Below, piece after piece: positions 42,969 through 61,851 of a stretch of DNA of 64,000 nucleotides. The position numbers and the translations under genes are program-made. Origin of the DNA: Pseudomonadota bacterium (lineage in GTDB: Bacteria > Myxococcota_A > UBA796 > SXON01); NCBI GenBank assembly GCA_030685065.1, contig JAUXQH010000175.1, forward strand, positions 1 through 64,000, in the 5' to 3' direction. The notes below the pieces were generated by a model, which did not search any database, was not told the DNA's origin, and saw nothing but the letters and a program-made list of their open reading frames with translations. The stretch's first letter is position 1. Each line of letters opens with the position of its first letter.

Positions 42969-43217
42969 TCAGCCACGGACGCGCAGGCTGACGGGGTCCT
43001 CGAGGTCCCCGACGGCCTCGACCGGGCAGCTCTCGAGCGCGGACCGGAACAGCGCTTCCTCGTCCGGGCGGTGCTCGCGGACGTAGGCCTTGCGATCGGC
43101 ATCGCGCCCGAAGATCTCGGGTGACACATCGGTGCATGTGTCACAGCTGATACATCGCGTATCCACGAACCAGGCGCCGCTCACGTTTTGCGCGTGACGA
43201 CGATTCGGATCAGCCAA
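42969..43217 (-). CDS. Single-cluster [4Fe-4S]-type ferredoxin
   Basis: An 82-residue ferredoxin with CISCDTC (CxxCxxC) and a distant CPVEAV proline-cysteine, enough for one cubane cluster. It starts at TTG 43217, which looks unusual but has AGGAG six bases upstream. It overlaps the 3' end of radical SAM gene rSAM1 by eight bases, which suggests it is the electron donor for these enzymes (inference). A perfect 9-bp palindrome, GTGACACAT-N6-ATGTGTCAC, lies inside the coding sequence. Confidence 0.88.
43121..43144. repeat. Perfect 9-bp inverted repeat in the ferredoxin gene
   Basis: GTGACACAT (43121-43129), CGGTGC spacer, ATGTGTCAC (43136-43144). A related TGATACATCG follows at 43148-43157. 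The form is operator-like. Confidence 0.6.
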
Positions 43218-46098: not shown

Positions 46099-46104
46099 AC
46101 GTGG

Positions 46105-46110
46105 AACGTA
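46105..46110 (-). promoter_or_regulatory. -10 element of a probable leaderless promoter (rSAM2 operon)
   Basis: TACGTT ends six bases before the ATG at 46098. The divergent HExxH gene starts at 46113, so the rSAM2 promoter overlaps that gene's 5' end. Confidence 0.4.
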
Positions 46111-46112
46111 GC

Positions 46113-47264: not shown

Positions 47265-48826
47265 CAGGACCCCCACACCGCCCGAGGCCCCGCCGCCTGG
47301 TAGAGCATCGTCTGATACAGCGATACATCGGGTGATACATCGGGTGATACATCGGGCGATGTATCGCCGGGGGTGTAGGTCTCCACCACGCAGCGGGGGA
47401 GCAGCTCCTGGAGCCGGGACAACGCGGCGGTGAAGCGCACCGCCGCCCCTTCGCCCGCCTCCACTCCGAGCAGCGGCGCCCGGATGCGGGTGAGGCCGGC
47501 CATCCGCTCCGCGGCGGCGGTGGTCATCGTGTCGAGCGGCTCGATCGGCCCCCAGACCTCGATCGTGGCGAAGCCGAGGCGCCGGGCCTCCCGGATGACG
47601 GCGGGGAGGCCGGGGTGGCTCCAGGGGGAGGCCCCGGCGAAGACGATGCCGCGTGCGCCGTCGGACGCCGCTCGGACGACGCGCTGGCGGAGCGTGCGCT
47701 CGGGTTCGGTGGGCCACGCGTCCCCGTAGGCGCGTCGCGTCGCGCAGCCGGGACACGCGAGGACGCAGGTCGCTTCGACGTGCAACACGATCGGATCCGG
47801 GCCGATCCGCGGGCGCTCCGGCACGGGGTCTCCCCCGCGCCAGGCGCGCACCCACGGCACGCTGGTCGAGGGGGAGCGCCCCGCGCGAGGAGGGGGAGGG
47901 CCCTCGTGTGGGGAGGGCGCGACCGGCGGGCTCTCGGGGGCCGCGGTGTCGACGGGCGTGACGATCTCGTCCCAGCCGAAGCGATCGGCGTAGCCGGCCG
48001 CCAGGCCGGGGCAGGCCGAGCGCACGGGGCACGCGACGCAGGGGGGGCCGTATCGGTAGGGCGCGGCTGGCTCGTCCATCCCAACCGGGAAGGCTCGCCG
48101 CGCGGCCGGGACATCGAGGCGATCGGCGGCGGCGGCGCGCTTGGGGCCGAGCACGCAGAGCGGAAGCCCCACGGTCTCCGCCTCGCGGCGGAGGCTCCAC
48201 GCGAGCGCCAGGGCGTCCTGGAGGGGGCCGCGCACCAGGGCCAGCCGCGGCAGGAGCATCCGCCACTCCGCGGCCGCTTGCCCGTCCCCACGGGCCAGGA
48301 TCCACCGCTGCCCATCCGCCCCGAGCCGCGGCACCAGCGCCGCCAGGGCGCCGATCTCTCCGGTGCCCGAGCGCGTCAGCACGGTGTTGACCCGGGTGGC
48401 GACGCCGGCGGCCACGAGGCGGCGTAGCCCCACCGAGGCCTGCTTGTGCGCCCCCTCTGCCTGGGTGAGCCAGTCGTGGAGCGCTGGCGTCGCGGCGTGC
48501 AGGGCGACCACGGCGTCGGTGAGGCCCGCGGCCTGGAGGCGCGTCGCCGCCCCCACCGCCGCGAGGATGCGACCGTTCGTCTGGATGCCGACCCGCGCGA
48601 AGCCCGCGGCGCGCGCGGCCTCGATGAGATCCGGGAGGTCGGGCCGGAGCGTGACCTCTCCCCCGGCGAGCCACACCGCGTCGGCGCCCGCGGCGCGTTC
48701 CCGCACGAGGAGCGCCGTGAGCTCGGCGAGCGTGGCGTCCGCGAGGGTGTCTCGGCGGGCGCCCTGGTCGCAGAAGCGGCAGCGGTTGTTGCAGCGATAG
48801 CCGGTCCGCAGGTCGAGCCAGGGCAT
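47231..48826 (-). CDS. Tandem-domain radical SAM protein (rSAM3)
   Basis: A 531-residue protein with two radical SAM-like domains. Domain 1: C12-NNR-C16-RF-C19, GGEVT in place of GGEP, and a SPASM-like CVACPVRSACPGL (263-275). A Pro-rich linker (about 295-345) joins domain 2, which carries C354-VLA-C358-PG-C361 and only a weak barrel. A 12-base repeat (47321-47366) encodes SPDV units near the C-terminus. Its ATG overlaps the stop of the GH36 gene, so the two are co-translated; the 3' end overlaps the HExxH gene tail-to-tail. Confidence 0.8.
   Translation of the reverse strand: MPWLDLRTGYRCNNRCRFCDQGARRDTLADATLAELTALLVRERAAGADAVWLAGGEVTLRPDLPDLIEAARAAGFARVGIQTNGRILAAVGAATRLQAAGLTDAVVALHAATPALHDWLTQAEGAHKQASVGLRRLVAAGVATRVNTVLTRSGTGEIGALAALVPRLGADGQRWILARGDGQAAAEWRMLLPRLALVRGPLQDALALAWSLRREAETVGLPLCVLGPKRAAAADRLDVPAARRAFPVGMDEPAAPYRYGPPCVACPVRSACPGLAAGYADRFGWDEIVTPVDTAAPESPPVAPSPHEGPPPPRAGRSPSTSVPWVRAWRGGDPVPERPRIGPDPIVLHVEATCVLACPGCATRRAYGDAWPTEPERTLRQRVVRAASDGARGIVFAGASPWSHPGLPAVIREARRLGFATIEVWGPIEPLDTMTTAAAERMAGLTRIRAPLLGVEAGEGAAVRFTAALSRLQELLPRCVVETYTPGDTSPDVSPDVSPDVSLYQTMLYQAAGPRAVWGSCQRAPVAPPVA
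47321..47366. repeat. 12-bp GATACATCG tandem repeat with inverted copy
   Basis: CGATACATCG (47321), GGTGATACATCG (47331), GGTGATACATCG (47343) and the inverted CGATGTATCG (47357-47366). On the minus strand it encodes DTSPDVSPDVSPDVS of rSAM3. Confidence 0.85.
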
Positions 48827-50688
48827 CAGCGCACCCACACTTCGCCGGCGCCGGGCGCGAGCGTGCGCGGGCCCGCGGCCGCGGTCTCTCCGCTCAGGAG
48901 GTCGGTGCCGCCGGGGCCCTCCACCACCGCGTCGAGGTCCCCCAGGTTGAGCAGGACGGTCGCGTCGTCGCCGATGGTCCAGGCCGTCGGGGCCTCGTCA
49001 TCGGGCACCCCGGCCTCCATGAACGGCCCGGCGTCGAAGCCCGAGACGAACGCCAGCGGATCGCGCGGGGTGGTGGGGAGCCCGGCGAGAGAGACCACGT
49101 CGGGGTCGAGGGCGCCGGCGAGGCGCGCGGGGTCGAGCGCGGCGAAGGCGTCTCCGAGGAGCCAGACGCCGCCCGAGGCCACGTTCGCGGCGATGGCGCC
49201 ACGGGCCTCTCCATCGGTGAACGGGGCGCGGAGCAGGAGGTTGTCCGCGTCGTTCCACCACCAGATCCCGTTCGCGAACGCGCGGGCTGCCGTGCTGCGG
49301 GCCTGCCACCGCAGGTAGGGCCGACGCGGGTCGGGGTCGACGTCGAACGCGATGTCCGCGCCCGAACGCCAGGAGTCGGCGTAGCCGACGCTCGGCAGCA
49401 TGGGCGCGCCGCACGCGAGAAACCAGGTGTCCTCGCCCATCGCGGAGCGGAGGAGCGCCATTCCGAGCCGGTAGGCCTCCGCCCCGGTCACGTTGTCGTG
49501 GCGCACGCCCTCGACCGCCCCGGCGTAGAGGAAGTCGAGCTTGAGATAGGCCCATCCATCCGCCACCTTGGCGGCGATCTGGCCGCGGAGCCACGCGGCC
49601 GCGTCCGGATGGGTGATGTCGAGGATCGCGTAGTCGTTGCCCGAGAGCCGGCCGTGCGTGAGCTCGTCGCCGTTGGCGTCGCGCACCCACCAGTCGGCGT
49701 TCGCGGCGTAGGTGTCGGTCGACCGGGCGACGTAGAACGGCGCCATCCAGAGCCCGGGCACCATTCCGGCGGCCGCGATCTCGGCGGCGAAGCCGGCGCT
49801 CCCGGAGGGGAAACGCTCGTTCGTCTCCCACTCGCCCCACGCGACCTCCCAGCCGTCGTCCACCTGGAACACCTCGATGGGCGCATGGGAGTCATCCAGG
49901 TTCGCCGCGGCGTCCAGGTTGTCGAGCAGGTCGGCCTCGGATGCTTCCCCGTAGTACTGATACCAGTCCGACCAGCCCACCCACGCGCCCCGCGTCGGCG
50001 TCCGCGCGGGCACCTCCGCCGCCCAGCCCTTCCACAGCCCGTGGGCGTCCCCGCCCACCTCGACCGAGAGCGGATCGAGCGTGATGGACTCCCCGGCGGC
50101 GAGCGGAATCCGCTCTCCGCGCATGCCGTACACCGCCCACGCCTCGGTCTCCGAGAAGGCCACGTAGAACTTCGTGCGCGTGACCCCTGTCGCCCCCACG
50201 AGCAGGGCGTCTCCGCCGGGCACGCCGACGAGCCCTGCCCACCAGGACGTCGCGCTTGTCTCCTGCGCGATCGTCTCGACGTCGCCGTCTCCCGCCGCGA
50301 GCGGCACGCCGTCCTCCACGGTCGGTGCGCCGAGCTCGGTGACGCCCGACCACGACCACGACTGGTAGCCCTGGCGCCAGAGGACGGCCTCGCCCGCGCC
50401 GTCCGCGAGCGCCCAGGTCCCGGTGAACACGACTCCCTCCAGCACGGCGCCCTCGGGACCCGCCGTGACGGTGGGGACGAACGCGCCGCCCACCACGGCC
50501 ACCGACACCTGGAGCTCTCCTTCCCCGCGGGCGGCCCCGGTCAGCGCGACCTCGCCGTGCTCCTCCCAGGTGAATGCGAGCGACGCGCCGTCCGCGCTTC
50601 GAATGGGCGTGGGGGTGGGCTCCGCGGTCGGGGCCCCGGTGCACCCGCAGATGTGCAATGAGACGAGGGCGCCCAAGGAGAATCGCAT
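48826..50688 (-). CDS. Exported GH36-type alpha-galactosidase-like lipoprotein
   Basis: A 620-residue glycoside hydrolase of the GH36 (melibiase) group. FQVDDGWE, YLKLDFLYAGAV (nucleophile aspartate) and RSGADIAFD (acid/base region) match the (beta/alpha)8 active site. The N-terminus (MRFSLGALVSLHICGC) looks like a lipoprotein signal, though the lipobox is unusual. GH36 enzymes release alpha-linked galactose or related sugars. Its ATG has TACACT six bases upstream and no ribosome-binding site. It is odd beside a radical SAM gene, and the stop/start overlap with rSAM3 suggests a functional link. Confidence 0.85.
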   Translation of the reverse strand: MRFSLGALVSLHICGCTGAPTAEPTPTPIRSADGASLAFTWEEHGEVALTGAARGEGELQVSVAVVGGAFVPTVTAGPEGAVLEGVVFTGTWALADGAGEAVLWRQGYQSWSWSGVTELGAPTVEDGVPLAAGDGDVETIAQETSATSWWAGLVGVPGGDALLVGATGVTRTKFYVAFSETEAWAVYGMRGERIPLAAGESITLDPLSVEVGGDAHGLWKGWAAEVPARTPTRGAWVGWSDWYQYYGEASEADLLDNLDAAANLDDSHAPIEVFQVDDGWEVAWGEWETNERFPSGSAGFAAEIAAAGMVPGLWMAPFYVARSTDTYAANADWWVRDANGDELTHGRLSGNDYAILDITHPDAAAWLRGQIAAKVADGWAYLKLDFLYAGAVEGVRHDNVTGAEAYRLGMALLRSAMGEDTWFLACGAPMLPSVGYADSWRSGADIAFDVDPDPRRPYLRWQARSTAARAFANGIWWWNDADNLLLRAPFTDGEARGAIAANVASGGVWLLGDAFAALDPARLAGALDPDVVSLAGLPTTPRDPLAFVSGFDAGPFMEAGVPDDEAPTAWTIGDDATVLLNLGDLDAVVEGPGGTDLLSGETAAAGPRTLAPGAGEVWVR

Positions 50689-50694
50689 TCGCTC

Positions 50695-50700
50695 AGTGTA
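50695..50700 (-). promoter_or_regulatory. -10 element of a probable leaderless promoter (GH36-rSAM3)
   Basis: TACACT on the minus strand, six bases before the ATG at 50688; no Shine-Dalgarno sequence. Confidence 0.45.
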
Positions 50701-50800
50701 TCGGCCAGGAAGCCGCACGGGTCCAGAAGTGCTAACGAGTGCGCGCGCCAGCTCGCTCGGGCGGGTGCGTCGTCCCGTGCCGCAAATGGAGGAGATCCAC

Positions 50801-51640
50801 ATGACCCGCCGCATTCTCGCCCTCTCGCTGCCCGTCCTCGCGATCTTCGTCGTCGCGGCGCGCAAGCCCACCGATTCGAAGCACGAGAACCACTACAAGG
50901 CCGTGAACGTGCCGGTGGCCGAGGGGCTGGGCCTCGCCGCGAGCTCCGCCGAGTCGCAGAAGGAGTTCCTCAAGCTCGACTCCAAGCTCACCAACACCAC
51001 CGGCGATCGCGTGTTCGTGGTGCCGAAGGACAAGTCCGAGTTCGTCCTCCCCACCGGCCCCATGACCGTGAGGGCGCCGAAGCTCTTCGGGGGGCCGCTC
51101 GTCATCCCCCCGGGGGAGAGCCGCTCGAACGTCTGGATGGTGGACGGTGAGACCGGTTTTCACGTGGACAGCTTCGCGTTCAACGCGAAGGGGATCCTGA
51201 GCGCGCCCAACGTGGGTACCGTGGTTCCGGCGCCGGACTTCCAGATGATCCCGAGCCGGAACGACTTCGCGGCCGGGCCGTTCAGCTGCAACGTGAACGA
51301 CGTGAACCAGACCACCGACTACTCGCTCGCGGTGTTCACCTGCACCTACGCGGGCACGGGCCTCGGCTTCATCGACGGGCGCAAGATCTCCGCGCGCTCG
51401 AAGAGCGGCGCGTTGTACGCCAACCTGTACAAGAACTCGAAGCGGGACGTGCTCCTCCCGGGCGACAAGGCCAAGTTCAGCATCCGCATCGAGATCCCCG
51501 CGACCGACGGGGACATGCAGTTCGTTCCGTACCACCTCGTGTTCGGTGACACGTTCTCCGAGGCGGTGACCACCCCGTTGACCGTCGAGACGTGGAGCTT
51601 CGAGGTCGATCCCGCGTTGACCGCCGCGGCGAACAAGTAG
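50801..51640 (+). CDS. Exported protein of unknown function in the RiPP locus
   Basis: A 279-residue protein with a short signal (MTRRILALSLPVLAIFVVAA). The mature part is beta-rich and reads like a two-lobe sandwich, with two cysteines (SCNVN, FTCTY). GGAGGAG before the ATG makes the start certain. It is the only gene of the central RiPP region on this strand apart from the HExxH gene, divergent from the GH36 gene and convergent with rSAM4. No family recognised; it could be an exported partner of the product. Confidence 0.65.
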   Translation: MTRRILALSLPVLAIFVVAARKPTDSKHENHYKAVNVPVAEGLGLAASSAESQKEFLKLDSKLTNTTGDRVFVVPKDKSEFVLPTGPMTVRAPKLFGGPLVIPPGESRSNVWMVDGETGFHVDSFAFNAKGILSAPNVGTVVPAPDFQMIPSRNDFAAGPFSCNVNDVNQTTDYSLAVFTCTYAGTGLGFIDGRKISARSKSGALYANLYKNSKRDVLLPGDKAKFSIRIEIPATDGDMQFVPYHLVFGDTFSEAVTTPLTVETWSFEVDPALTAAANK

Positions 51641-51659: not shown

Positions 51660-52730
51660 TCAGCCCGGGATGGGGCGGAGCTCGCCTTCTCCGTGGATGC
51701 CGAGGTATTCCCGCCACGTGCCTTCGCAGACGTGGGTGTAGGCGCACGTCTCGCAGGCCTTCACGTGGCGCTTCAGATCGTAGCGCTTGCGCTCCTGCCA
51801 GTTGAAGCGGGCGCGGCCGCCCTCGACCGTCGCGATGCCTTCGGGGAAGCCCTCGGCGTTCAAGGTGCGGATCGAGCAGTCGGTGTCGAGGTCGCGGAAC
51901 TCGCCGATGTAGCGCCGGGCCATCGACTTGCTGGACACGAGGGTGAGCGGCAGCACGCACAGCGGGAAGCCGCCGAGCGTGAACGTGCGCTTGTACTTGT
52001 ACTCGTTGAGCAGCACCGCTTTGACGACGTAGGGGACCACCTCGGTGTACGTCGGGATCAGCGAGGTCTCTGTCTCCGCGTAGCCCTCCGCGCGCACGAA
52101 GTTGGCGCGCACGTCGTCCAGGCCGAGCTCGTAGAAGAACTTGAGGATGGCCGGCAGGTGCTTGTAGTTCCACGCGTTCACGACGACGTTGACCGAGACG
52201 TTGTCCCGCAGGAACCCCTCTTCCCGCTTCTTCAACAGGTAGAGCAGGCCGGACTTCTTCTTCTCGAAGTTGCCGGGTACGCGCGTGAGGGCGTCCTCGA
52301 GCGCGGGGGTGTGCCCGTGCATGCTCATCGTGACGCGGGTGAGCCCGGCGTCGAGCACCTTGTCGACGAAGTCGTGGCGGAAGAACTTGGTCCCGTTGGT
52401 CGCCAACGCGATGCGGGTGTAGCCGAGGTCCCGCGCGAAGCGGATCGCGTCGAGGATCCAGGGGTAGGTCGTCGGCTCGCCGCCGAGAAAACCGACCGAA
52501 CGGTTGCCCGCGTCGAACCAACGCTGGATCTCCGCCTGCATGTCCGCGAACGGCATGTAGCGACGCATCTCGGTCGCCGGGAGGCCGTCCAGGCAGAACA
52601 CGCACTTGTTGTTGCAAATCTTGCCGACGTTGATCTCGACGTTCTTGCGGGTGTCCCGCCACATGTTCGCCACGTCGGGGCGGGTCTCGGCGACCGCCTG
52701 GGTTTCGGGGATCGGGCGCGTCTCGTTCAT
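51660..52730 (-). CDS. Radical SAM/SPASM-like protein (rSAM4)
   Basis: A 356-residue radical SAM enzyme: C39-NNK-C43-VF-C46, LGGEPTTYP and a C-terminal ACETCAYTHVCEGTWREYL auxiliary-cluster site. Its first 130 residues align with rSAM2 (CxxxCVFCLD, MPFxDxQxEI, GHTPAL). The ATG at 52730 overlaps the rSAM5 stop. It is the last gene of the precursor operon, so likely modifies the Ser-His-Gly repeat or its leader (inference). Length is typical of single-domain peptide maturases. Confidence 0.88.
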   Translation of the reverse strand: MNETRPIPETQAVAETRPDVANMWRDTRKNVEINVGKICNNKCVFCLDGLPATEMRRYMPFADMQAEIQRWFDAGNRSVGFLGGEPTTYPWILDAIRFARDLGYTRIALATNGTKFFRHDFVDKVLDAGLTRVTMSMHGHTPALEDALTRVPGNFEKKKSGLLYLLKKREEGFLRDNVSVNVVVNAWNYKHLPAILKFFYELGLDDVRANFVRAEGYAETETSLIPTYTEVVPYVVKAVLLNEYKYKRTFTLGGFPLCVLPLTLVSSKSMARRYIGEFRDLDTDCSIRTLNAEGFPEGIATVEGGRARFNWQERKRYDLKRHVKACETCAYTHVCEGTWREYLGIHGEGELRPIPG

Positions 52731-53698
52731 GCGGCCTCCAGGGGGGTCAGCTCGGTGGGGCCGAAGCGGTCGAGGTAGGCGCCGAACACGCCCGCACAGA
52801 CGCCGTTGTAGGCGCAGGTGCCGCAGGCGTCGGCATGGCGGCGGCCGCGGTCGGGCGCCCAGTTGTAGAGACCGTCGAGCGACACGCTCTGGGGGTGGCG
52901 CACCCATTCCACGGTCACCCGCGGGTTCCAGTACAGATCGTTGCTCGTCATCCGCACGCTCCCGAGCGCGCACATGGGCACCCCGAAGAAGCGGACGATC
53001 GCGGGGGACGCGGCGCGCACCACCTCGGGCGCGAGCGCGGCGATCTCGTCGAGGCGCACCGGGAGGCGATCGTACCGATCCGCGCCCAGGCCCTCGGGGG
53101 TGAGGTTGGAGATGATGAGCAAGGCGGCGTCGACGTCGTGAGCGAGCGCGGCGGTCTCCACCAGGCGGTCGACATTCTCACGGGTGAGCACGCTGTTGAT
53201 GTACGGGCGGAAGCCGGGCTTCACCGCCCGGGCGTTGGCGATCGCGCGGGTCACGCGCTCGAACGAGCCGACACGGCCGGCGCAGGGGTCGTGCGTGGCG
53301 GCGTCCGGGCCGTGCACCGAGAACAGGGCCTCGTCGAGGTACGGCATGGCCGCCTCGGCGAAGCGCGGATCCGCGAGGCGCGTGCCGATGGTGCCGATGC
53401 TCGTGCGCAGGCCGAGGGCCTTGGCGAGCTTGAGCACGTCCACGAAGCGCGGGTGGATCGTGGGCTCTCCGCCGGTGAAGTGCACCGACTCGACCCCGCG
53501 CGAGACCTGCTCCTTGAGGATCCGGGTGATGCGCCCGAACGTCACCGGGAAGGCGTTGAACTCCTTCATCCGGTGGTCCTCGGAGCAGAACGTGCACCGC
53601 TCCGGGCAGGTGTAGGTGATGTGCAGCTCCAACCGCCGCATGCGCTGGCCGTGGGGGCCGATCCAGGGGGTCTCGACGACCGGATCGATGTCGGTCAC
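52727..53698 (-). CDS. Radical SAM/SPASM-like protein (rSAM5)
   Basis: A 323-residue radical SAM enzyme: C31-PER-C35-TF-C38, FTGGEPTIHP, and a C-terminal ACGTCAYNGVCAGVFGAYLDRFG auxiliary motif. Start GTG at 53698 overlaps the rSAM6 stop (GTGA). The C-terminal Cys block is close to that of rSAM4 and to the mid-protein block of rSAM3, indicating a family expansion inside this locus. Exact reaction unknown. Confidence 0.88.
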   Translation of the reverse strand: MTDIDPVVETPWIGPHGQRMRRLELHITYTCPERCTFCSEDHRMKEFNAFPVTFGRITRILKEQVSRGVESVHFTGGEPTIHPRFVDVLKLAKALGLRTSIGTIGTRLADPRFAEAAMPYLDEALFSVHGPDAATHDPCAGRVGSFERVTRAIANARAVKPGFRPYINSVLTRENVDRLVETAALAHDVDAALLIISNLTPEGLGADRYDRLPVRLDEIAALAPEVVRAASPAIVRFFGVPMCALGSVRMTSNDLYWNPRVTVEWVRHPQSVSLDGLYNWAPDRGRRHADACGTCAYNGVCAGVFGAYLDRFGPTELTPLEAA

Positions 53699-54693
53699 GC
53701 CGCACCCGACACATGCGATGGGCGCGCGGCGCGCGCGCGGAAGTAGGCGGGGTAGAGGCGGTCACACAGGCGGGTGAGCACCGCGTCCACCGCCGCGGTG
53801 CTCGCGAGCACCTCGGGGGTGTAGACCTCGCGAAGGAGCCCGGGGACCCGCGCCGCGGCCTCCGCGAGCACCTCGGCGGAGGGAGGATCGTCCAGGGTGC
53901 CCACCGCGGTGCGGTCCCCCACGGCCTCGGCGAGCACGAGGTTCGAGGGGTGGATCGTCCGATCGGAGTCGACCACGAACCCGGTGTTGAAGAAGGGGGT
54001 CGGCGCGCGGGTGTAGAGGTTGCGGAGGTAGAGCCGCCCGCCGGCCTCCCAGTCGCGCTCGAACTCGGTGGCGATCGCGTCGAAGCTGCCCTCCAACGCC
54101 GAGAGCTGCGCGGCGCTCCAGGGCAGGTAGTAGCCGGGGAGCAGGTTGAACCGCACCACGCCCATCGCGCGGAGAGCGCGGAAGTTGGCGGCGGCGCGGG
54201 AGGCGGTCGAGGGGGCGACGGTCTGCGTCACCACGAAGCGCGGCAGGCGGAGCAGCTCGGGCAGCCAGCGCTCGATCTGCGCGAACGAGGGGGCCTCGCC
54301 GGGGAGCGGGCGCCGGAGACCGTCGTGGTCACGCGGGGCGCCGTCCATCGAGAGGGTGAGCGTCACGCGGGGGTGGGCGCGCAGGAGATCCAGGATTCCC
54401 GCGTCGAAGCGGGTGCCGTTCGTCGAGAGGTAGACCGATACATTCGATACATTCGCCGCGTGTGTCAGCACCGCCCCGACGATGTCGGGGCGGAGCAGCG
54501 GCTCCCCGCCGAAGAGCTTGATGTCGCCCCCGCCGTAGCGAGCCACGAACAGGTCGATGGCGCGGCGGGCGTCGTCAGCCGAGAGGTCGGGGACGCCGTC
54601 CTTCACCGTCGGGCAGTAGGCGCAGCGCAGGTTGCAGCGCCGCGTGATCGTCAGGATCAGCGCCGCGCGCCAGCGGTCGGCACGGGCGCGCAC
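53695..54693 (-). CDS. Radical SAM protein without auxiliary-cluster domain (rSAM6)
   Basis: A 332-residue radical SAM protein: C20-NLR-C24-AY-C27, LFGGEPLLRPD and STNG. Unlike its neighbours it has only one later cysteine, so no SPASM-type cluster. The GTG at 54693 lies four bases after the precursor stop; a longer frame upstream merely reads through the repeat in another frame and is not coding. Position directly after the precursor is where HxsC or another maturase could be expected, but the characteristic HxsC C-terminus is absent. Confidence 0.85.
   Translation of the reverse strand: MRARADRWRAALILTITRRCNLRCAYCPTVKDGVPDLSADDARRAIDLFVARYGGGDIKLFGGEPLLRPDIVGAVLTHAANVSNVSVYLSTNGTRFDAGILDLLRAHPRVTLTLSMDGAPRDHDGLRRPLPGEAPSFAQIERWLPELLRLPRFVVTQTVAPSTASRAAANFRALRAMGVVRFNLLPGYYLPWSAAQLSALEGSFDAIATEFERDWEAGGRLYLRNLYTRAPTPFFNTGFVVDSDRTIHPSNLVLAEAVGDRTAVGTLDDPPSAEVLAEAAARVPGLLREVYTPEVLASTAAVDAVLTRLCDRLYPAYFRARAARPSHVSGAA
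54436..54455. repeat. CGATACATT direct repeat inside rSAM6
   Basis: CGATACATTCGATACATTCG, two copies with a 9-base period, encoding NVSNVS on the minus strand. A member of the GAYACATC motif group. Confidence 0.5.
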
Positions 54694-54697
54694 CCCG

Positions 54698-55099
54698 TCA
54701 CCACTGGCCGTGGGAGCCGTGCGAACCGTGGGAGCCATGGGACCCGTGCGAGCCATGGGACCCGTGCGAGCCGTGAGACCCATGCGAGCCGTGGGACCCG
54801 TGCGAGCCGTGGGACCCGTGCGAGCCGTGAGACCCGTGCGAGCAGTGCTGCGCGAGGAGCGCCTCGTACCGGATGGGCTCGAGCCCGCGGCGGTCGAGCG
54901 AGCTCGGATCCAGCTCGAGATCACCCGCGGTGGCGTTGAGCAGGAGCAGGCTCTGGGCGATGTCGTCCCCCTCCTGACGCGCCGCGCGGGCCTCGTCCGG
55001 CAAGAGGAGCTGATCCGCGCTCTTGGGGAGACTGGGGAAGTCGTCGGCGAGCGCCGCCGGCTTCTTGCCCGGGAGGCTGGGGTTCTTGGGAAGGCTCAT
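54698..55099 (-). CDS. RiPP precursor with Cys-(Ser-His-Gly)15-Gln-Trp core (HxsA-like)
   Basis: A 133-residue precursor. Residues 1-85 are a leader (MSLPKNPSLPGKKP..., acidic and Leu-rich DIAQSLLLLNATAGDLELD), followed by Cys86, fifteen exact Ser-His-Gly triplets (87-131) and a terminal Gln-Trp. Read as His-Gly-Ser this is the His-Xaa-Ser repeat that defines HxsA. The ATG at 55099 overlaps the HxsB stop and GAGGGG lies upstream; the stop is four bases before rSAM6. Encoded by 9-base repeats that could expand or contract in frame. The repeat should bind metal unless modified. Confidence 0.92.
   Translation of the reverse strand: MSLPKNPSLPGKKPAALADDFPSLPKSADQLLLPDEARAARQEGDDIAQSLLLLNATAGDLELDPSSLDRRGLEPIRYEALLAQHCSHGSHGSHGSHGSHGSHGSHGSHGSHGSHGSHGSHGSHGSHGSHGQW
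54707..54841 (-). repeat. Fifteen 9-bp repeats coding for Ser-His-Gly
   Basis: 135 bases in perfect 9-base phase. A second-order 18-base period is visible because TCG and TCC serine codons and GGG and GGC glycine codons alternate over much of the array. Confidence 0.95.
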
Positions 55100-56613
55100 G
55101 CGGACCCCTCGGTCGGGTAGGGGATTGTTCCCGGGCGGGACCGCTGGATGGTCCAGCGGCGAAAGATCTTCTCGGTGCGACCGTCCGTGTCCTCGGCGAG
55201 GCGTCGGAACAGGTCGGCTTGCTCGCCGTAGAACTCCTGGCACTTGCGCGACCGAGGGCGCTGGCCGAAGATGTCCCCGTCGAACATGTAGTTGTGCAGC
55301 GGCTGGATGCCGCACGTCGGCTTGTAGACGCAGTCGGCGCAGGCGGGCAGGGCCTCCTGGATGCTCGCGACCGCGAGGGCCCGCACGGTGGGGTGCGCGG
55401 CGATGTCGGCGTACGTCGAGCCCGACACGTGCCCGAGCCTGAAGAAGTCATTGCCCATGTGGGCCACCATCCGGCCTTCGTCGCACGTGTAGATCGCGCC
55501 GTCGAAGTTGTAGGCCAGCTGTGCGCTGCCCGAGCCGCTGGGGGAGCGGCAATCCGTGTAGTTGGGGTCATCCGGGGTGAGCATCTTCGTCAGGAACATC
55601 GCCGCCTGGCGCTCCTGGATGAAGGTGCCGGCCTGGTTGAGCTCGAGGATGTAGTCGAGCGTGTCCCGGTAGAAGGTGAGGAACTCCTCCATCGTGTAGC
55701 CGATCTGCTTCCACGTGTTCACCGCGAAGCCGAACGGGTTGAGCGGGCGGAGGTGGATGCTCTTGATGCCGCGCTTCACGTACTCGTCGACGATCTCGCG
55801 CCCGCGGCCGAGGGAGGCGCGCGTGCAGGTCATCAGCGCGTCGACGTGGAAGAGGTTCGGATCGAGCCCCTTGTCGATCCACGCCTGGTTGAACCGCTCC
55901 ATCCAGCCGCTGACGGTCTGGTAGCTCGAGCTCTTCCCGATCCAGCCCCGATTTGCGTTGTGCAGATCCTCCGGGCCGTCGAGCGAGGTGCAGACCATCA
56001 CCCCCTTCTCGACGAGAAAAGCCATCTTCTCTTCGTCCATCAGGGTCAGGTTCGTGACGAGGGAGAACAGCAGCTCTCGGTTTTCGTACCGGTTCTTCTC
56101 GAGGGCGTGCTCGACGATGAAGCGCAGCGCCGCGAAGTTGGCCGTGGGCTCGCCGCCCTGGAACTCGAAGTTCAGGACCCGCGACGGCGTGCTGAAGGCG
56201 AACTCGACGACCTCGCGCGCGGTGGCGAGGGACATGTCCGTGTCCACGCGGTCCATGTCGGTGCGCGACGCGTGGCAGTACTTGCACGCGTGGTTGCAGC
56301 GGAGCGTCGTGACCACGATGTGCAGATGCGGGCCGCCGCCGAGGAAGCTCTTCTTGCGGCGGATGCGCGCGGCCATGCGGTCGATGTCGAGCCCGGTCTT
56401 GAAGAAGCCCTTGCGTTCGAGCTCGGTGCGCTCCTCGCCGTCGATCTTCCCGCGCAGGAACGTGTCGAAGCGCTCCTTGGGGAGGAAGTGGAACTCGCCG
56501 CCCTCGTTCGTGAGCAGGACCTTTCCGCCCACGACGCCGTAGCGGAAGAAGCCGACCTCGGGCGCGAGCGCGCTCGGATCGACGCGGAGCGGGGTGGTGA
56601 GGCGGCCGGTCAT
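55096..56613 (-). CDS. HxsB-like radical SAM/SPASM maturase
   Basis: A 505-residue radical SAM protein. The N-terminal 60 residues (GFFRYGVVGGKVLLTNEGGEF...FLPKERFDTFLRG) match the start of the His-Xaa-Ser system maturase HxsB. The cluster motif is C106-NHA-C110-KY-C113, then FQGGEPT, and the C-terminus has PACADCVYKPTCGIQP with further cysteines for auxiliary clusters. It overlaps both the upstream HxsD-like gene and the precursor by four bases. In known Hxs systems HxsB modifies the repeat protein; the chemistry is not known to me. Confidence 0.88.
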   Translation of the reverse strand: MTGRLTTPLRVDPSALAPEVGFFRYGVVGGKVLLTNEGGEFHFLPKERFDTFLRGKIDGEERTELERKGFFKTGLDIDRMAARIRRKKSFLGGGPHLHIVVTTLRCNHACKYCHASRTDMDRVDTDMSLATAREVVEFAFSTPSRVLNFEFQGGEPTANFAALRFIVEHALEKNRYENRELLFSLVTNLTLMDEEKMAFLVEKGVMVCTSLDGPEDLHNANRGWIGKSSSYQTVSGWMERFNQAWIDKGLDPNLFHVDALMTCTRASLGRGREIVDEYVKRGIKSIHLRPLNPFGFAVNTWKQIGYTMEEFLTFYRDTLDYILELNQAGTFIQERQAAMFLTKMLTPDDPNYTDCRSPSGSGSAQLAYNFDGAIYTCDEGRMVAHMGNDFFRLGHVSGSTYADIAAHPTVRALAVASIQEALPACADCVYKPTCGIQPLHNYMFDGDIFGQRPRSRKCQEFYGEQADLFRRLAEDTDGRTEKIFRRWTIQRSRPGTIPYPTEGSA

Positions 56614-56903
56614 CTGGTCAGGGCCGAGGAGAGGGCCGCGCGGGCGTCGACGATGGTCTGGAACAGGGCATGGTTCGCGAACTCGTCCGGCAGGCGATCG
56701 CGGAGGCGGTCGGGCACGCTGGAGAAGGTCACCAGGATGTCGGTGTCTCCAGCGGGACCTGTGGCCTCGATCACGGCGGGGCCGAACGCGGCGAACCGCT
56801 CGGCGGCGCGCGAAACGGCGGGGGTCGCGTACAGCGAGCGGTGGAAGCGAACCGTCACGGCCGCCCCGGGGCTCGCGTCCGGAGGAGCGGCGGGCTCAAC
56901 CAT
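56610..56903 (-). CDS. Second HxsD-like protein
   Basis: A 97-residue protein resembling HxsD in its central pattern: VTVRFHRSLYATPAVSRAAERFA, a beta hairpin, then EFANHALFQTIVDARAAL, corresponding to HxsD's F-x-N-E-L-L-x-x-A-L-R. It lacks the C-terminal helix of the larger HxsD next door. It overlaps that gene by eight bases and HxsB by four. Possibly a leader-binding or scaffold subunit; a heterodimer of the two HxsD-like proteins is a reasonable guess. Confidence 0.7.
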   Translation of the reverse strand: MVEPAAPPDASPGAAVTVRFHRSLYATPAVSRAAERFAAFGPAVIEATGPAGDTDILVTFSSVPDRLRDRLPDEFANHALFQTIVDARAALSSALTR

Positions 56904-57318
56904 CCGACTTCTCCCACGGGACCGGGATCTCGAGCGGCTCCATCTCCTCGGCGTCCAGCTCGGCGAGGAGCTTGTCGATGGAGGAGGGGGCGTCTACCGA
57001 GAAGAAGGCCTTGGCCAGGATGAACTCGCGGATCTTGGCGTTGGACGCGCCGACGGCCTTGCGGAGCGCCTGGTTGAGCAGCTCGTTCGCGAACTCGCCC
57101 GCGAGGGCCTCGAGGGCCTCGTGGTCCGCCTCGTCCTTCGACTTGAGCACGACGGCGACGCGCTGATCGGCGGGGCGATCGAGGAACACGTAGCAACGAT
57201 CGAGGAAGAGGTAGGCGGCGCCCTGAATCGTGTCCAGGGCGTAGATGGACTCGTCGACCACGAAGGAGACGCGGCGCGCGCCGACCTCGGTCGTGAGCCC
57301 GTTCGGCTCGATCGTCAT
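56896..57318 (-). CDS. HxsD-like protein
   Basis: A 140-residue protein matching HxsD of the His-Xaa-Ser system: VDESIYALDTIQGAAYLFLDRCYVFLD at the start and FANELLNQALRKAVGASNAKIREFILAKAF in the second half, followed by an acidic tail of about 30 residues not seen in short HxsD proteins. HxsD has no known enzyme activity and is thought to assist the radical SAM maturases. ATG 57318 overlaps the stop of the Tat-signal gene. Confidence 0.85.
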   Translation of the reverse strand: MTIEPNGLTTEVGARRVSFVVDESIYALDTIQGAAYLFLDRCYVFLDRPADQRVAVVLKSKDEADHEALEALAGEFANELLNQALRKAVGASNAKIREFILAKAFFSVDAPSSIDKLLAELDAEEMEPLEIPVPWEKSDG

Positions 57319-57878
57319 CCCGGCACCAGCCGCGTGGCGGCCTGGGCGAGCGCGTCTGCGTGGCGCCACATCCGCTCGTCATGGGGCTCGAGCGCCGCGA
57401 GGGAGTCCAGATCGCGCTCCTCGTTGTCCGAGACGATGGCGGCGAGGCGGACCACCGCGCGCCCGAGCGACTCGTCCATCGGGGACGCGCCGTCGCCGCC
57501 GTCCATCACGATGAAATCGATGTACGCGCTCGACGCGGGGCCGCGCGGGGCGCCGATGCGCAGGGAGAGATCGACGCGGGCGGTGCGCCCGTCCTCATGC
57601 AGGAGGTTGAGCGTCACCGCGCCCTGCACCGCCGGGTAGAGGCGCGCGACGTGCCAGCCGAGGCCGATGGCGCTCCCTGCCTGGAGCGGCTGGATCAGCC
57701 ACCAGGGGCTCTGGTGGACGCCGGTCGCGGCCGCGAGGCCTGCCGACACGCCGGTTGCACCGAGGACGGGGGCGCCGAGGAGGGGCGCGCCGGGTGCTGC
57801 AACCGCGGCGGCGCTGCCGACGGCCGAGGACGCGAGGCCGAAAACGGCGAGGCGAAGAAACGCGCGACGGTCTTCCAT
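57315..57878 (-). CDS. Tat-signal exported protein, first gene of the Hxs-like operon
   Basis: A 187-residue protein with a twin-arginine signal (MEDRRAFLRLAVFGLASSAVGSAAA; RRAFL matches RRxFL), so it is folded before export. The mature part contains PWWLIQPLQAGSAIGLGWHVARLYP and later acidic helices; it has no cysteine and I recognise no family. It overlaps HxsD by four bases, so it belongs to the operon. It may export or bind the finished product in the periplasm. There is no Shine-Dalgarno sequence but TATCCT lies six bases before the ATG. Confidence 0.75.
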   Translation of the reverse strand: MEDRRAFLRLAVFGLASSAVGSAAAVAAPGAPLLGAPVLGATGVSAGLAAATGVHQSPWWLIQPLQAGSAIGLGWHVARLYPAVQGAVTLNLLHEDGRTARVDLSLRIGAPRGPASSAYIDFIVMDGGDGASPMDESLGRAVVRLAAIVSDNEERDLDSLAALEPHDERMWRHADALAQAATRLVPG

Positions 57879-57957: not shown

Positions 57958-60957
57958 TCAATAGGCCGGAAGGACGTAGACCTTGCCGCCGCCCGTGGCG
58001 GCCTCGTCGTTGCCCGTCGCGGATGCGGCCCAGTCGAGCGCGCCGTCGCCGTCGAGATCGTAGAGGCCGCTGATGGTCGTGCCGAACGCGTCTCCCGCGG
58101 CGCCGCCGGTGAAGCTCGCGTACTGGTCGTTCGGGAGGGTCCACGTGCCGGTGGGCTGGCCCCCCTCGAACAGGTAGACGACCCCCTCGCCGCTCGGGCC
58201 CGCCGTGGTCGCGCCCGCGAGCAGATCCTCGACGCCGTCCCCCGTCACGTCCGCCATGGAGAGGCCCGTGCCGAGCGCGCCATCCCCGTTGAGGATCCAG
58301 CTCGCGGTCGAGAGGGTCTCCGCGCCCGAGAGCGTCCCACCCCGGTAGACGAGCACGGCGCCGTCACCGCCGCTGTACCCGGGCATGCCGAGCGCGAGGT
58401 CGAGGATGCCGTCGTCGTCGAGGTCTCCGAGGTCGATGGAGGCCGGGGTCAGCCCGAGCTGGCTGTTCGCGGCGGGGCCGGTGATCTCCGCGACGTCGGC
58501 GGCGTTGATGGTCGTCCCGCGAGTGCCGCCATCGCTACGGATGGCGGAGCCGGCTACGACCCAGCAGGTGCCGGACGAGGTGCCCGCGTCGTCGTCGTTC
58601 GGGGCACAGGCGACCAGATCGTCGTAGCCGTCGTTCGTCAGATCGCCGAGCGCGAGCGAGTACCCGAGGTTGTCGCTGTTGCCGACGCCGCGCACGTAGA
58701 AGCTCGAATCGTCGTCGTCGATGTAATCGGTCGTGTACTCGTCCTCGTAGAACGTGACGTAGGCGCGGCCCTTCGCGGTCTCCTCCCCGGGCGCCCCGCC
58801 CGCGAGATCGGGCCCGCCGTCCCCGTCGAAGTCGCCGACCGCGAGGCTGTAGCCGTAGTAGCCGTTGGACGAGCGCCCGAAGATGGCGCCCTCGGCGAGC
58901 CAGCTCCCGTACTCGCTGCCGCTCAGGCCATCGACGTCGAACACGTAGACCGAGCCGTCGTCGGTGGCGCTCGCATCGGCCTGGTAGAGGCCGACGGCGA
59001 GCTCGCTCGCGCCGCCGTGGTCGGGGTCCCCCAGGGATACGATCGCGGAGCCGAAGAACTCGTCCGTCGTGTCGCCGTAGACGCGGAGGTAGCCGTCGGT
59101 GAGGTTCGCGGGGTCGGCCATCGTGTCGACGTCGTGGAAGGCGACCACCCCCAGATCCGCGAGCGTGCCCGATCCGCGGCTCGGCGCGCAGATGATCAGC
59201 TCGCCGTCGCCGTCTCCATCGAGGTCCTCCATGGCGGTCACGCCGGCGCTGCCGATGGCATCGCCGGAGCTGGTGCCGTACACGGTCCAGCCGCTCTCGT
59301 CCTCGGCCGCCATGGGGTCCTGGATGCCGTCGCAGTCGTTGTCGAGCGCGTCCCAGCCCACCTCTGCGGCGCCGGGGTTCACGGCGGCGTCCGTGTCGTC
59401 ACAGTCGTCGATCAGCGCGACGTACCCGGAGGGCGCGGCGCAGTCCTCGACCTCGGTGTCCGCATCTCCGTAGGCGTCCCGATCCGCGTCGGCGTACCAG
59501 GACGAGGTGGCGAGGCCGTCATCCGGGACGCCGTCGCAGTCCTGATCTACGTCGTCGCAGACCTCGGTGCGGCCTGGGTAGATGGTGGACGCAGCGTCGT
59601 TGCAGTCGGTGGCGTTTGCCACGTACCCGGCGGGCGCCGAACACGCCGAGAGGGAGGCGGTGGCCGAGCCGTACGTGTCGGCGTCGGTGTCGGCGTACCA
59701 GGTCGAGGTCACGCCGTCGTCGATGGTGCCGTCGCAATCGTTGTCGATGCCGTCACACACCTCGACCACGGCGGGGCCGATCGCCGAATTGGTGTCATCA
59801 CAATCGGCGCCGCCGAACGCGTCCGACTCGACTCCGTCGGCGTCCTGGTCGTAGTCCGAGGCGGCGTCGCAGTCCTGATCGATCCCGTCGTACCAGGTGT
59901 CGTCGGCATCGGGGTGGATCGCGGCGTCCGCATCCTCACAGTCGGTGCCACCGTGAGAGATGTCGTCGTAGCCGTCCGCGTCCTGATCGTAGTCGGAGCG
60001 GGCGTCACAATCCTGGTCGACGCCGTCGTACCAGGGGTCGACCGCGCCGGGGTGGATGGCGGCGTCGAGGTCGTCACAGTCGGTTCCGCCGTAGGCCGCG
60101 CCGTCGTAGCCGTCAGAGTCCTGGTCGTAGTCGGAGGCGCCGTCGCAGTCCTGATCGAGGCCGTCGTACCAGGTGTCGTCCGCGCCTACGTACACGGTCT
60201 CGTCGGCGTCGTCGCAGTCGCCGTCCGCCTCGGATTGGCCGTCGCCGTCGTTGTCGATGGTCTCGAGGGTCTCGTCGATGAGCGCGTCGCAGTCGTCGTC
60301 CGTGCCGTTGTCGGGGATCTCGAGCTGGCCGGGGCTCACCGCCGGGTCGGTGTCGTCACAGTCGTCCCCCGCGCCGCCGCCCAGGTAGCCGTCCCCGTCC
60401 TGATCGTAGTCGGAGCGGCCGTCACAGTCCTGATCGATCCCGTCGTACCAGACCTCCGCCGCGCCGGGGTTCACGGTCGCGTCCTCATCGTCACAGTCAT
60501 CGCCCACGCCCCATCCGTCGCCGTCGGCGTCGACGCCGCCGATGACCTCGGCGACGACCGCCACGTCCACGCGAGGCTCGTCCGGATCGTCGGACGTGAC
60601 CGTGATCGTGGCGGACGAGGGCCCCGCGGGGCCGCCGTTGAAGCTCACGGTCACGACCGCCTCCTCCGCGGGGGCGAGGGTGAGCGGGCTCACGACGTCG
60701 ACCTCGAAGTCACCGCCGCTCACGGCGAGGCTGGTGGTCAGGGCGCCCGCCCCCAGGTTGCGCACGACGAACACGCCCGTGACCGACACGCCCGGCGAAG
60801 TGGCGCCGAGATCGAGCTCGAGAGGGCTCACCTCGATGTCGGGGAGCTGCTCGTCCACGCCGATGGGACCGGTGTCGTCGACCTTGTCGTCGACGAATTC
60901 GACGGAGAGGGGCGAGCAGCCGGCGAGGAGGAGCAGGGTCAGCGTTGCGCGCGTCAT
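57958..60957 (-). CDS. Large lipoprotein with MopE-like repeats and FG-GAP propeller
   Basis: A 999-residue lipoprotein (MTRATLTLLLLAGC, lipobox LAGC). After an ASPM-like beta domain there are about nine acidic MopE-type units (pattern CDDxDAxxxPGAxExWYDGxDQDCDG, each with YDQDxDGY), followed by FG-GAP/integrin-like repeats (VGDFDGDGGPDLAGGAPGE, LGDLTNDGYDDLVACAPN) that should form a calcium-stabilised beta-propeller. The architecture matches exported surface proteins of Myxococcota; a divalent-metal-rich surface role is likely. The coding DNA is highly repetitive around 59.4-60.5 kb. Confidence 0.85.
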   Translation of the reverse strand: MTRATLTLLLLAGCSPLSVEFVDDKVDDTGPIGVDEQLPDIEVSPLELDLGATSPGVSVTGVFVVRNLGAGALTTSLAVSGGDFEVDVVSPLTLAPAEEAVVTVSFNGGPAGPSSATITVTSDDPDEPRVDVAVVAEVIGGVDADGDGWGVGDDCDDEDATVNPGAAEVWYDGIDQDCDGRSDYDQDGDGYLGGGAGDDCDDTDPAVSPGQLEIPDNGTDDDCDALIDETLETIDNDGDGQSEADGDCDDADETVYVGADDTWYDGLDQDCDGASDYDQDSDGYDGAAYGGTDCDDLDAAIHPGAVDPWYDGVDQDCDARSDYDQDADGYDDISHGGTDCEDADAAIHPDADDTWYDGIDQDCDAASDYDQDADGVESDAFGGADCDDTNSAIGPAVVEVCDGIDNDCDGTIDDGVTSTWYADTDADTYGSATASLSACSAPAGYVANATDCNDAASTIYPGRTEVCDDVDQDCDGVPDDGLATSSWYADADRDAYGDADTEVEDCAAPSGYVALIDDCDDTDAAVNPGAAEVGWDALDNDCDGIQDPMAAEDESGWTVYGTSSGDAIGSAGVTAMEDLDGDGDGELIICAPSRGSGTLADLGVVAFHDVDTMADPANLTDGYLRVYGDTTDEFFGSAIVSLGDPDHGGASELAVGLYQADASATDDGSVYVFDVDGLSGSEYGSWLAEGAIFGRSSNGYYGYSLAVGDFDGDGGPDLAGGAPGEETAKGRAYVTFYEDEYTTDYIDDDDSSFYVRGVGNSDNLGYSLALGDLTNDGYDDLVACAPNDDDAGTSSGTCWVVAGSAIRSDGGTRGTTINAADVAEITGPAANSQLGLTPASIDLGDLDDDGILDLALGMPGYSGGDGAVLVYRGGTLSGAETLSTASWILNGDGALGTGLSMADVTGDGVEDLLAGATTAGPSGEGVVYLFEGGQPTGTWTLPNDQYASFTGGAAGDAFGTTISGLYDLDGDGALDWAASATGNDEAATGGGKVYVLPAY

Positions 60958-61017: not shown

Positions 61018-61851
61018 TTACGCGAGGATCAGCTCGGTCACCGCGCCCCGCTTCTTCGCGTCGCAATTGATCGCGCGCGTCGCCGCCACCGGGGTGCGCA
61101 AGAAACCATCCGCATAGAGCTCGTGCACGGCGGGGGCCGACGAGTTCGAGAGGACGACATGGACGCCCCGCTCCTTGAGCGTCCGCGCCGTGTCGCGCAG
61201 GCGCGCCTGCTCGGGCATCCCGAAGCCGCCCGCGGTGTAGGCCGTGAAGCTCGAGGTGGCCGTGAGCGGCACGTAGGGCGGATCGAAGTAGACGAAGTCC
61301 CCCGGCTCGGCGCGCGTCAGGACGGCCCCGAAGTCCTCGACGTGGAGCTCGGTCTCCGCGAGCGCGATGGACGCCGCGCGGAGCGTCTCCGCGTCGCAGA
61401 TCGTGGGGTTGGTGTAAGAGCCGAACGGCACGTTGAACCGGTTGTTGCGGTTCACCCGGTAGAGCCCGTTGAAGCCGGTGCGGTTGAGGTAGATGAACCA
61501 CGCGGCGACCTCGGCGTCGCTCCGGGTGTCGATCACGTCCTCGCGGAGGCGCTCGAAGAAGCCGCGGTCGTGCGGGTAGCCGCGGAGGAGCGCGATCACG
61601 TCCTCCACGTGGTCGCGTACGCCCGTCCACGTCCGGATCAGCCGCGCGTTGGTGTCCGACAACACGGCGCGCGCCGGGCGCAGGTGGAAGTACAACGCGC
61701 CGCCCCCGACGAACGGCTCGTGGTAGCGGCCGAAGCGTAGCGGGGTGTGGGGGAGGAGCGCCGGGAGGAGTTGCCGCTTGCCGCCCACCCACTTGAGGAA
61801 GGGGCGGGGGTGCGGGATCGAGGTTGAACCGTCAGCCATGCCCGCCAGCAT
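61018..61851 (-). CDS. D12-class N6-adenine DNA methyltransferase (Dam family)
   Basis: A 277-residue methylase with the order typical of Dam: PFLKWVGGKRQLL (motif X), EPFVGGGALYF (motif I, AdoMet), and VYFDPPYVPL (motif IV, catalytic DPPY), plus YRVNRNNRFNVPFG in between. It transfers a methyl group to adenine N6; the target may be GATC but cannot be read from sequence. No restriction partner is encoded nearby. A TTGACA-N17-CATGCT promoter could start transcription just upstream of the alternative ATG at 61839, four codons inside. Confidence 0.92.
   Translation of the reverse strand: MLAGMADGSTSIPHPRPFLKWVGGKRQLLPALLPHTPLRFGRYHEPFVGGGALYFHLRPARAVLSDTNARLIRTWTGVRDHVEDVIALLRGYPHDRGFFERLREDVIDTRSDAEVAAWFIYLNRTGFNGLYRVNRNNRFNVPFGSYTNPTICDAETLRAASIALAETELHVEDFGAVLTRAEPGDFVYFDPPYVPLTATSSFTAYTAGGFGMPEQARLRDTARTLKERGVHVVLSNSSAPAVHELYADGFLRTPVAATRAINCDAKKRGAVTELILA

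Follow-up and report, generated by a model that had tools for sequence, protein, structure and literature searches.

What a bacterium makes from a gene that ends in fifteen copies of one tripeptide, set among genes for radical S-adenosylmethionine (SAM) enzymes, is the question raised by a contig of a Pseudomonadota bacterium (JAUXQH010000175.1, assembly GCA_030685065.1; GTDB lineage Myxococcota_A, UBA796, SXON01), of which positions 1 to 64,000 were analysed and are called the window here. An earlier note on this DNA had read the eight genes at 51660-57878 as an operon for a ribosomally synthesized and post-translationally modified peptide (RiPP) resembling the His-Xaa-Ser (Hxs) system but larger than its known HxsA-D set. 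Judged by its matches to curated protein-family models, the cluster is an extended HxsA4-type member of the Hxs system and not a new kind of system. That it yields a radical SAM-modified Hxs RiPP is very likely, and an extended HxsA4-type cluster for both biosynthesis and export of such a peptide is the overall explanation that we consider probable.

The family assignment is carried by the precursor and two of its partners in NCBIfam searches. HxsB matched the equivalog model TIGR03978 (493.5 bits, cut-off 370), HxsD matched TIGR03976 (70.9 bits, cut-off 50) and the precursor matched NF038313, the His-Xaa-Ser repeat protein HxsA4 (75.9 bits, cut-off 55), while no match of the precursor to classical HxsA was obtained (TIGR03979, 22.9 bits, cut-off 121.65). 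These results bear out the reading of an Hxs-like RiPP operon larger than HxsA-D. The precursor, however, is not of a new type: the Ser-His-Gly type is already catalogued, as HxsA4, together with a radical SAM protein named HxsC4, and the cluster therefore does not lie outside the known system. Of the two HxsD-like proteins that had been noticed, one is thus secure, whereas the other (HxsD2) just misses its own model, NF038315 (39.8 bits, cut-off 41), and aligns with HxsD as a remote homologue (hhalign E 1.3e-6, probability 91%). Because the two are homologues, a heterodimer of HxsD and HxsD2 is a reasonable guess. The AlphaFold2 (AF2) model of HxsD (predicted local distance difference test, pLDDT, 88) has the topology beta-beta-alpha-beta-beta-alpha plus helices, and among solved folds it comes nearest to Rpb11-like RNA polymerase subunits, though weakly (E 0.003, template-modelling score 0.4); we rejected HxsD as a winged-helix RiPP recognition element, which this model does not fit.

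The remaining radical SAM proteins, numbered rS6 to rS11 (Table 1), lie further from the curated families, and no radical SAM protein of the cluster passes the cut-off of HxsC (TIGR03977) or of HxsC4 (NF038332). The best profile for rS6 is PapB (NF047865, 95.7 bits, far below the cut-off of 340), rS7 is closest to HxsC4 (86.3 bits, far below 500), rS8 scores 159.7 bits against HxsC4 (cut-off 500) and 72.8 against HxsC (cut-off 267.9), and rS11 reaches 80.8 bits against HxsC, below the same cut-off of 267.9. The CX3CX2C motif is present in 78/78 HxsB proteins and is kept in all radical SAM orthologues compared (26/26 for rS6 and 26/26 for rS7); the auxiliary motif CX2CX5C is kept by HxsB, rS7 (26/26) and rS8 and is found in 0/26 orthologues of rS6.

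The precursor ends in ...ALLAQHC(SHG)15QW, with residues 87-131 forming exactly 15 Ser-His-Gly units between Cys86 and Gln-Trp-stop, as the earlier note had described. Seven different 9-mers encode the 15 units; it is thus the protein sequence that has been maintained, and neither chance nor fresh DNA slippage alone accounts for the array. Across 90 distinct related precursors, Ser-His-Gly accounts for 1401 of 1451 units, with repeat numbers from 6 to 50 (median 15), and codon differences between adjacent units comprise 1814 synonymous and 76 nonsynonymous changes, which argues for strong selection on the exact peptide. The array ends in SW in 52 precursors, QW in 37 and AW in 1, and His-Cys directly precedes it in 64 of the 90. 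Across the sequences compared, the leader of the precursor varies, whereas its (Ser-His-Gly)n-[Gln/Ser]-Trp core hardly changes. Two further Hxs-type loci (L081 and L082) have repeats of the AHRSHSSHRSH type followed by a C-terminal domain (YPGGRIFVDGKLVG...), nearer to the layout of classical HxsA.

All eight genes, which we re-bounded on the minus strand, are real and run head to tail, with neighbours overlapping by 4, 8, 4 and 4 bases, then a 4-base gap between precursor and rS6 and overlaps of 4 and 4 bases; every element of this layout lies where it had first been placed. Conservation was followed in a phylum sample of 379 genomes, an order sample of 63 genomes and 79 fetched loci. HxsB exceeded its cut-off in 125 of the 379 phylum genomes. 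The gene order Tat-HxsD-HxsD2-HxsB-precursor-rS6-rS7-rS8 is kept across the window's family (f1, loci L040-L054) wherever the contig is long enough and is largely kept across the taxonomic order, and precursors from relative groups of that order share the same core ending. A strict DNA pattern for the array (five Ser-His-Gly codon triplets plus X-Trp-stop) was found in 27 phylum genomes, 26 of which have HxsB (hypergeometric p ~1e-12); the lone genome without HxsB is an 80% complete metagenome-assembled genome that has a homologue of rS10 (44308) and the Tat-signal protein. When named genomes were scanned with the same pattern, at least 55 stretches were recovered, mostly from Myxococcota/Deltaproteobacteria, with a few labelled Bdellovibrio/Oligoflexales, Elusimicrobia or Planctomycetota; since the pattern misses AGY serine codons near the array end and TAG stops, the 27 genomes and 55 contigs are lower bounds. 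Cultured carriers of the precursor are Nannocystis exedens, N. pusilla, N. poenicansa and N. bainbridge.

Not every precursor is close to HxsB, and several genomes have it on a different contig, which weighs against the favoured reading. Repeat genes without radical SAM neighbours, which the earlier note had named as evidence against its proposal, thus do exist in the literal sense, but the genomes that hold them are nearly always genomes with HxsB (the 26 of 27 above): distance of the precursor from HxsB exists, and independence from it was not found among the 379 genomes. Second, divergent copies of HxsB stand in loci L055, L056 and L057 (genomes G195, G105 and G020), with no Ser-His-Gly precursor recognised beside them, and these copies may serve other precursors. 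One sequence record titled Klebsiella pneumoniae (L204, CAMAWH010000012.1) carries the operon found in G185:C12, whose genome belongs to the family of the window, and its species label looks wrong.

The extent first assigned to the operon proved too narrow, because the cluster reaches down to 43210, and in place of the four radical SAM proteins claimed, the window holds seven of the system (HxsB and rS6-rS11) together with a gene for an HExxH hydroxylase, which is read from the plus strand. That the HExxH gene and the extra radical SAM genes belong to the Hxs cluster is a conclusion in which we have good confidence. Homologues of rS9 lie downstream of rS8 in loci L040, L041, L042-L047, L051 and L054; in L040 and L047, where the glycosidase-like and orphan genes that separate rS8 from rS9 in the window are absent, the rS9 homologue starts its open frame 4 bases past the end of the rS8 frame. 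A homologue of rS11 stands beside that of rS10, upstream of the Tat gene, in L058, L059, L069, L071-L073, L075, L076 and L079, and it is position that suggests membership for rS9 and rS11. For the other two genes, presence follows HxsB, which occurs in 34 of the 63 genomes of the order: rS10 is found in 30/34 genomes with HxsB and 2/29 without it (Fisher 2e-11), and the HExxH protein in 31/34 and 2/29 (Fisher 3e-12), values that overstate independence because genomes of one order are related. The two HxsB-negative genomes with rS10 are 80-86% complete. Co-location on contigs supports the same conclusion as this co-occurrence. The HExxH protein itself exceeds the cut-off of TIGR04267 (94.1 bits, cut-off 40) with the motif HEVQH, and its nearest solved chain is ChlH (8s5f, E 2.6e-5), in a match of 69 residues around the catalytic motif.

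Alternatively, the genes at 43210-48838 (radical SAM and HExxH) might act on a second peptide that has no relation to the Hxs product, their proximity to the Hxs operon being due to chance. In the window these genes make up a transcription unit of their own with other genes between, the HExxH gene runs on the other strand, and the glycosidase-like and orphan genes intervene; all of this counts against membership. We nevertheless consider a second peptide unlikely because of the 4-base spacing between rS8 and the rS9 homologue in L040 and L047, the position of rS10 and rS11 homologues upstream of the Tat gene in other families, and the presence of rS10 and HExxH in step with HxsB; moreover, no second precursor was recognised near the 43210-48838 genes.

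The first gene of the operon bears on export. By inspection, its product begins with a twin-arginine motif followed by a hydrophobic stretch (MEDRRAFLRLAVFGLASSAVG in the window; ENRRQFL, DSRRNFL and NSRRDFL in relatives), the mark of a twin-arginine translocation (Tat) signal. The protein has no Pfam or NCBIfam match. Its AF2 model has a pLDDT of 82 overall and ~87-98 over residues 61-180; the modelled domain matched no PDB fold at E<0.001, fold matches to kinases were discarded as noise, and profile comparison gave no link to HxsD. A profile of the family finds it in 101 of the 379 phylum genomes, 96 of the 101 having HxsB, and 30 genomes with HxsB are without it (Fisher 6e-56). Loci L069 and L070 each hold a tandem duplication of the Tat gene together with the precursor, the two arrays of L069 having 19 and 42 repeats.

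In some families, the precursor instead bears an internal Tat-like signal of its own (for example, TRRDFVETSASLLLLGAGASLL and TRGQAAAIGSFLLMAGTSGHALA). A fixed rule places such a leader in 11 genomes (12 when G110 is added by eye), and the Tat protein is present in none of them; among the 50 genomes without a precursor leader by this rule, the Tat protein is present in 46 and absent from 4, among them G110, whose Tat-like leader the rule missed. The two kinds of leader, that of the window and the Tat-like one, are homologues (hhalign E 3.5e-7), which suggests that precursors gave up their own signal wherever a partner protein has one. Three genomes (G178, G356 and G358) fit this poorly, having neither the Tat protein nor a Tat-like leader at threshold, and the leader type changes only ~2 times on the HxsB tree. 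With so few switches the genome counts are not independent, and we caution against reading the cis/trans distribution as statistically independent evidence, its genome-level Fisher value being an overstatement; it is a clear pattern with few independent events. Tat-dependent export of the product is probable on these grounds. Signal-less partners are known to be co-exported through the Tat system (PMC4273604), and hitchhiker export of PaoABC (PMC4273604) resembles the present case in that the signal of one protein could carry out a second protein of the same operon that has none; it differs in that the proteins here are not a known Tat substrate complex, and the likeness is suggested only by the cis/trans distribution.

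What the sequences show directly is which genes are present, how they are linked and that the array is under selection; from this, together with enzyme precedents, we infer a possible chemistry. The HxsD pair would present the leader to the maturases, and the radical SAM set would move along the array and modify every repeat. His-Gly-Ser at every repeat junction, and His-Gly-Gln at the end, has the triceptide spacing between His(i) and a C-beta residue(i+2). The imidazole of His would be bonded to the beta-carbon of the Ser (or, at the end, Gln) two residues on, so that each His-Gly-Ser would become a three-residue His cyclophane and the array a rigid chain of contiguous rings, and the HExxH enzyme would then beta-hydroxylate residues of the crosslinked chain. 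Tat would take the product out of the cytoplasm; the lineage of the window would have the signal on the partner protein, which would either export the peptide in trans in a hitchhiker-like manner or act as its receptor outside, and in other lineages the Tat signal would lie within the precursor leader. Outside the cell, the product might bind metal or have a structural role.

Our preference for cyclophanes with hydroxyls follows from the i to i+2 spacing, from matches to ChlH and ChlB and from precedent: HaaB and YhhB connect C2 of His with the beta-carbon at residue i+2 and MscB connects Phe with Ser C-beta, i to i+2 (PMC11002830), whereas HExxH enzymes such as ChlH beta-hydroxylate His and Asp on a preformed cyclophane and are able to hydroxylate runs of consecutive residues (PMC12636437). 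His-Ser cyclophane chemistry is nonetheless a tentative assignment, the beta-hydroxylated chain that we favour is about equally tentative, and the complete picture, a rod of 6 to 50 contiguous and possibly beta-hydroxylated His-Ser cyclophanes exported through Tat by its own signal or a dedicated carrier, is more speculative again. Several observations pull the other way. The weak structural matches of HxsB include the multiple cyclophane synthase ChlB, but this match covers the general radical SAM domain only (E 3e-6), and 5wgg, which we take to be the thioether-forming enzyme CteB, scores better than ChlB. Likewise, rS6 is nearer to PapB-type thioether (ranthipeptide) maturases than to cyclophane enzymes, and the literature searched, which excluded most subscription journals, yielded no described product for any Hxs system.

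Almost the same weight falls to other radical SAM linkages, chiefly thioethers or bonds at Gly. The enzymes might act on Gly or Ser to form C-N or ether bonds (as in bicyclostreptin), make (thio)ethers to an alpha-carbon via the Cys that precedes the array, or epimerise residues, a set of reactions for which every unit offers His-Gly and Ser: HghB bonds the amide nitrogen of His to C-alpha of the next Gly, and HghC forms an ether from Ser O to His C-beta (PMC11002830). The similarity of rS6 to PapB also points this way. We regard these reactions as doubtful because one Cys cannot serve 15 units (and His-Cys precedes the array in just the 64 of 90 precursors), the Ser-His-Gly period is at odds with the spacing of HghC (Ser i to His i+3), and HghB chemistry is known at one site only. 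It is similarly doubtful that the array is mainly a metal chelator, that is, a His-rich periplasmic or secreted peptide for Cu, Zn or Ni whose modifications tune binding. One His in every three residues, export signals in cis or trans and the example of noursin, a copper-binding RiPP with a His crosslink (PMC10206099), would suit this role, but no conserved metal transporter, sensor or resistance gene was recognised beside the cluster, the upstream protein with MopE-type motifs has relatives in only 6/79 loci, and chelation is in any case a role and not an alternative chemistry. Finally, the array exceeds the gathering score of Pfam Collagen (PF01391, 33.3 bits, cut-off 27.2), as would be expected if it folded into a triple helix of the collagen type (Gly-X-Y) and the radical SAM enzymes had another target. 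We rejected this family assignment, as the array is without proline and the match reflects the Gly period alone; the precursor matches HxsA4, lies inside a radical SAM operon and is accompanied by HxsB in 26/27 genomes, and a triple helix is thus very improbable.

In comparison with the Hxs system as catalogued in NCBIfam, the cluster shares a precursor, HxsB and HxsD above their cut-offs, His and Ser one residue apart and adjacent radical SAM genes. It differs in that no radical SAM protein passes the HxsC or HxsC4 cut-off and in having five HxsC-like and one PapB-like radical SAM proteins, HxsD2, an HExxH hydroxylase and the Tat protein, an enzyme set more than twice the described one. Triceptide enzymes (HaaB, YhhB, ScaB and MscB) offer the His-Gly-Ser spacing of i to i+2 and precedents at His C2 and Ser C-beta (PMC11002830), but the triceptides described have few rings whereas 15-50 would form here, with a crosslink predicted from sequence, and no window enzyme comes close to the YhhB model (rS6 37.1 bits, HxsB 47.4 bits, cut-off 445). 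ChlB/ChlH-type systems (TIGR04267) likewise link an HExxH peptide hydroxylase to a radical SAM RiPP, with ChlH as the best solved match; their known members include radical SAM-HExxH fusions, and the hydroxylase here is a separate protein.

A search for literature on HxsA4, HxsC4 and Ser-His-Gly repeats returned nothing relevant, and the eight-gene order, the added genes, the Tat family and the cis/trans pattern were not found in the literature searched, with the same exclusion of most subscription journals. The catalogue names pre-existed. The cluster offers a conserved, exactly periodic substrate and a defined, larger enzyme set for testing Hxs chemistry, the likely reaction being checkable as a mass shift per repeat, and Nannocystis provides cultured relatives with the same precursor type. 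If real, the cis/trans Tat signal would be an unusual arrangement for RiPP export and a handle on how modified peptides exit the cell, and a cyclophane rod, if true, would be a far longer regular radical SAM-crosslinked chain than any known to us.

Table 1 Features of the extended Hxs cluster in the 64,000-nucleotide window.
Feature	Position	Strand	Remarks
Tat-signal protein	57315-57878	-	187 aa; twin-arginine signal MEDRRAFLRL and predicted beta-sheet/helix domain; unnamed family
HxsD	56896-57318	-	140 aa; TIGR03976
HxsD-related protein (HxsD2)	56610-56903	-	97 aa; remote HxsD homologue
HxsB, radical SAM/SPASM maturase	55096-56613	-	505 aa; TIGR03978
HxsA4 precursor	54698-55099	-	133 aa; NF038313
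(Ser-His-Gly)15 array	54707-54841	-	precursor residues 87-131; His85-Cys86 before, Gln-Trp-stop after
rS6, radical SAM, PapB-like	53695-54693	-	332 aa; GTG start; no C-terminal auxiliary-cluster motif
rS7, HxsC-like radical SAM	52727-53698	-	323 aa; GTG start
rS8, HxsC4-like radical SAM	51660-52730	-	356 aa
rS9, HxsC-like radical SAM, degenerate second half	47231-48838	-	NF038332 101.9 bits
aKG-HExxH-type peptide beta-hydroxylase	46101-47264	+	TIGR04267; motif HEVQH
rS10, HxsC-like radical SAM, two CX2CX5C-like motifs	44308-46098	-	NF038332 97.5 bits
rS11, HxsC-like radical SAM	43210-44307	-	TIGR03977 80.8 bits

Several further genes lie in and around the cluster. Between rS8 and rS9 lie a melibiase/GH31-like protein (48826-50790, minus strand) and an orphan protein (50735-51640, plus strand), which were rejected as parts of the cluster, being present there only in the sister genome at L041. 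Adjoining the Tat gene is a 999-aa protein (57958-60957, minus strand) with eight Cu-binding MopE-type motifs (PF11617), FG-GAP repeats and an Ig-like domain; it was dropped as a partner for the scarcity of relatives given above, and its few relatives fall in loci of the window's own family. Further upstream are a Dam-family DNA adenine methyltransferase (61018-61851, minus strand) and a MatE transporter (62580-63875, minus strand), genes that, among the fetched loci, only the two sister genomes have.

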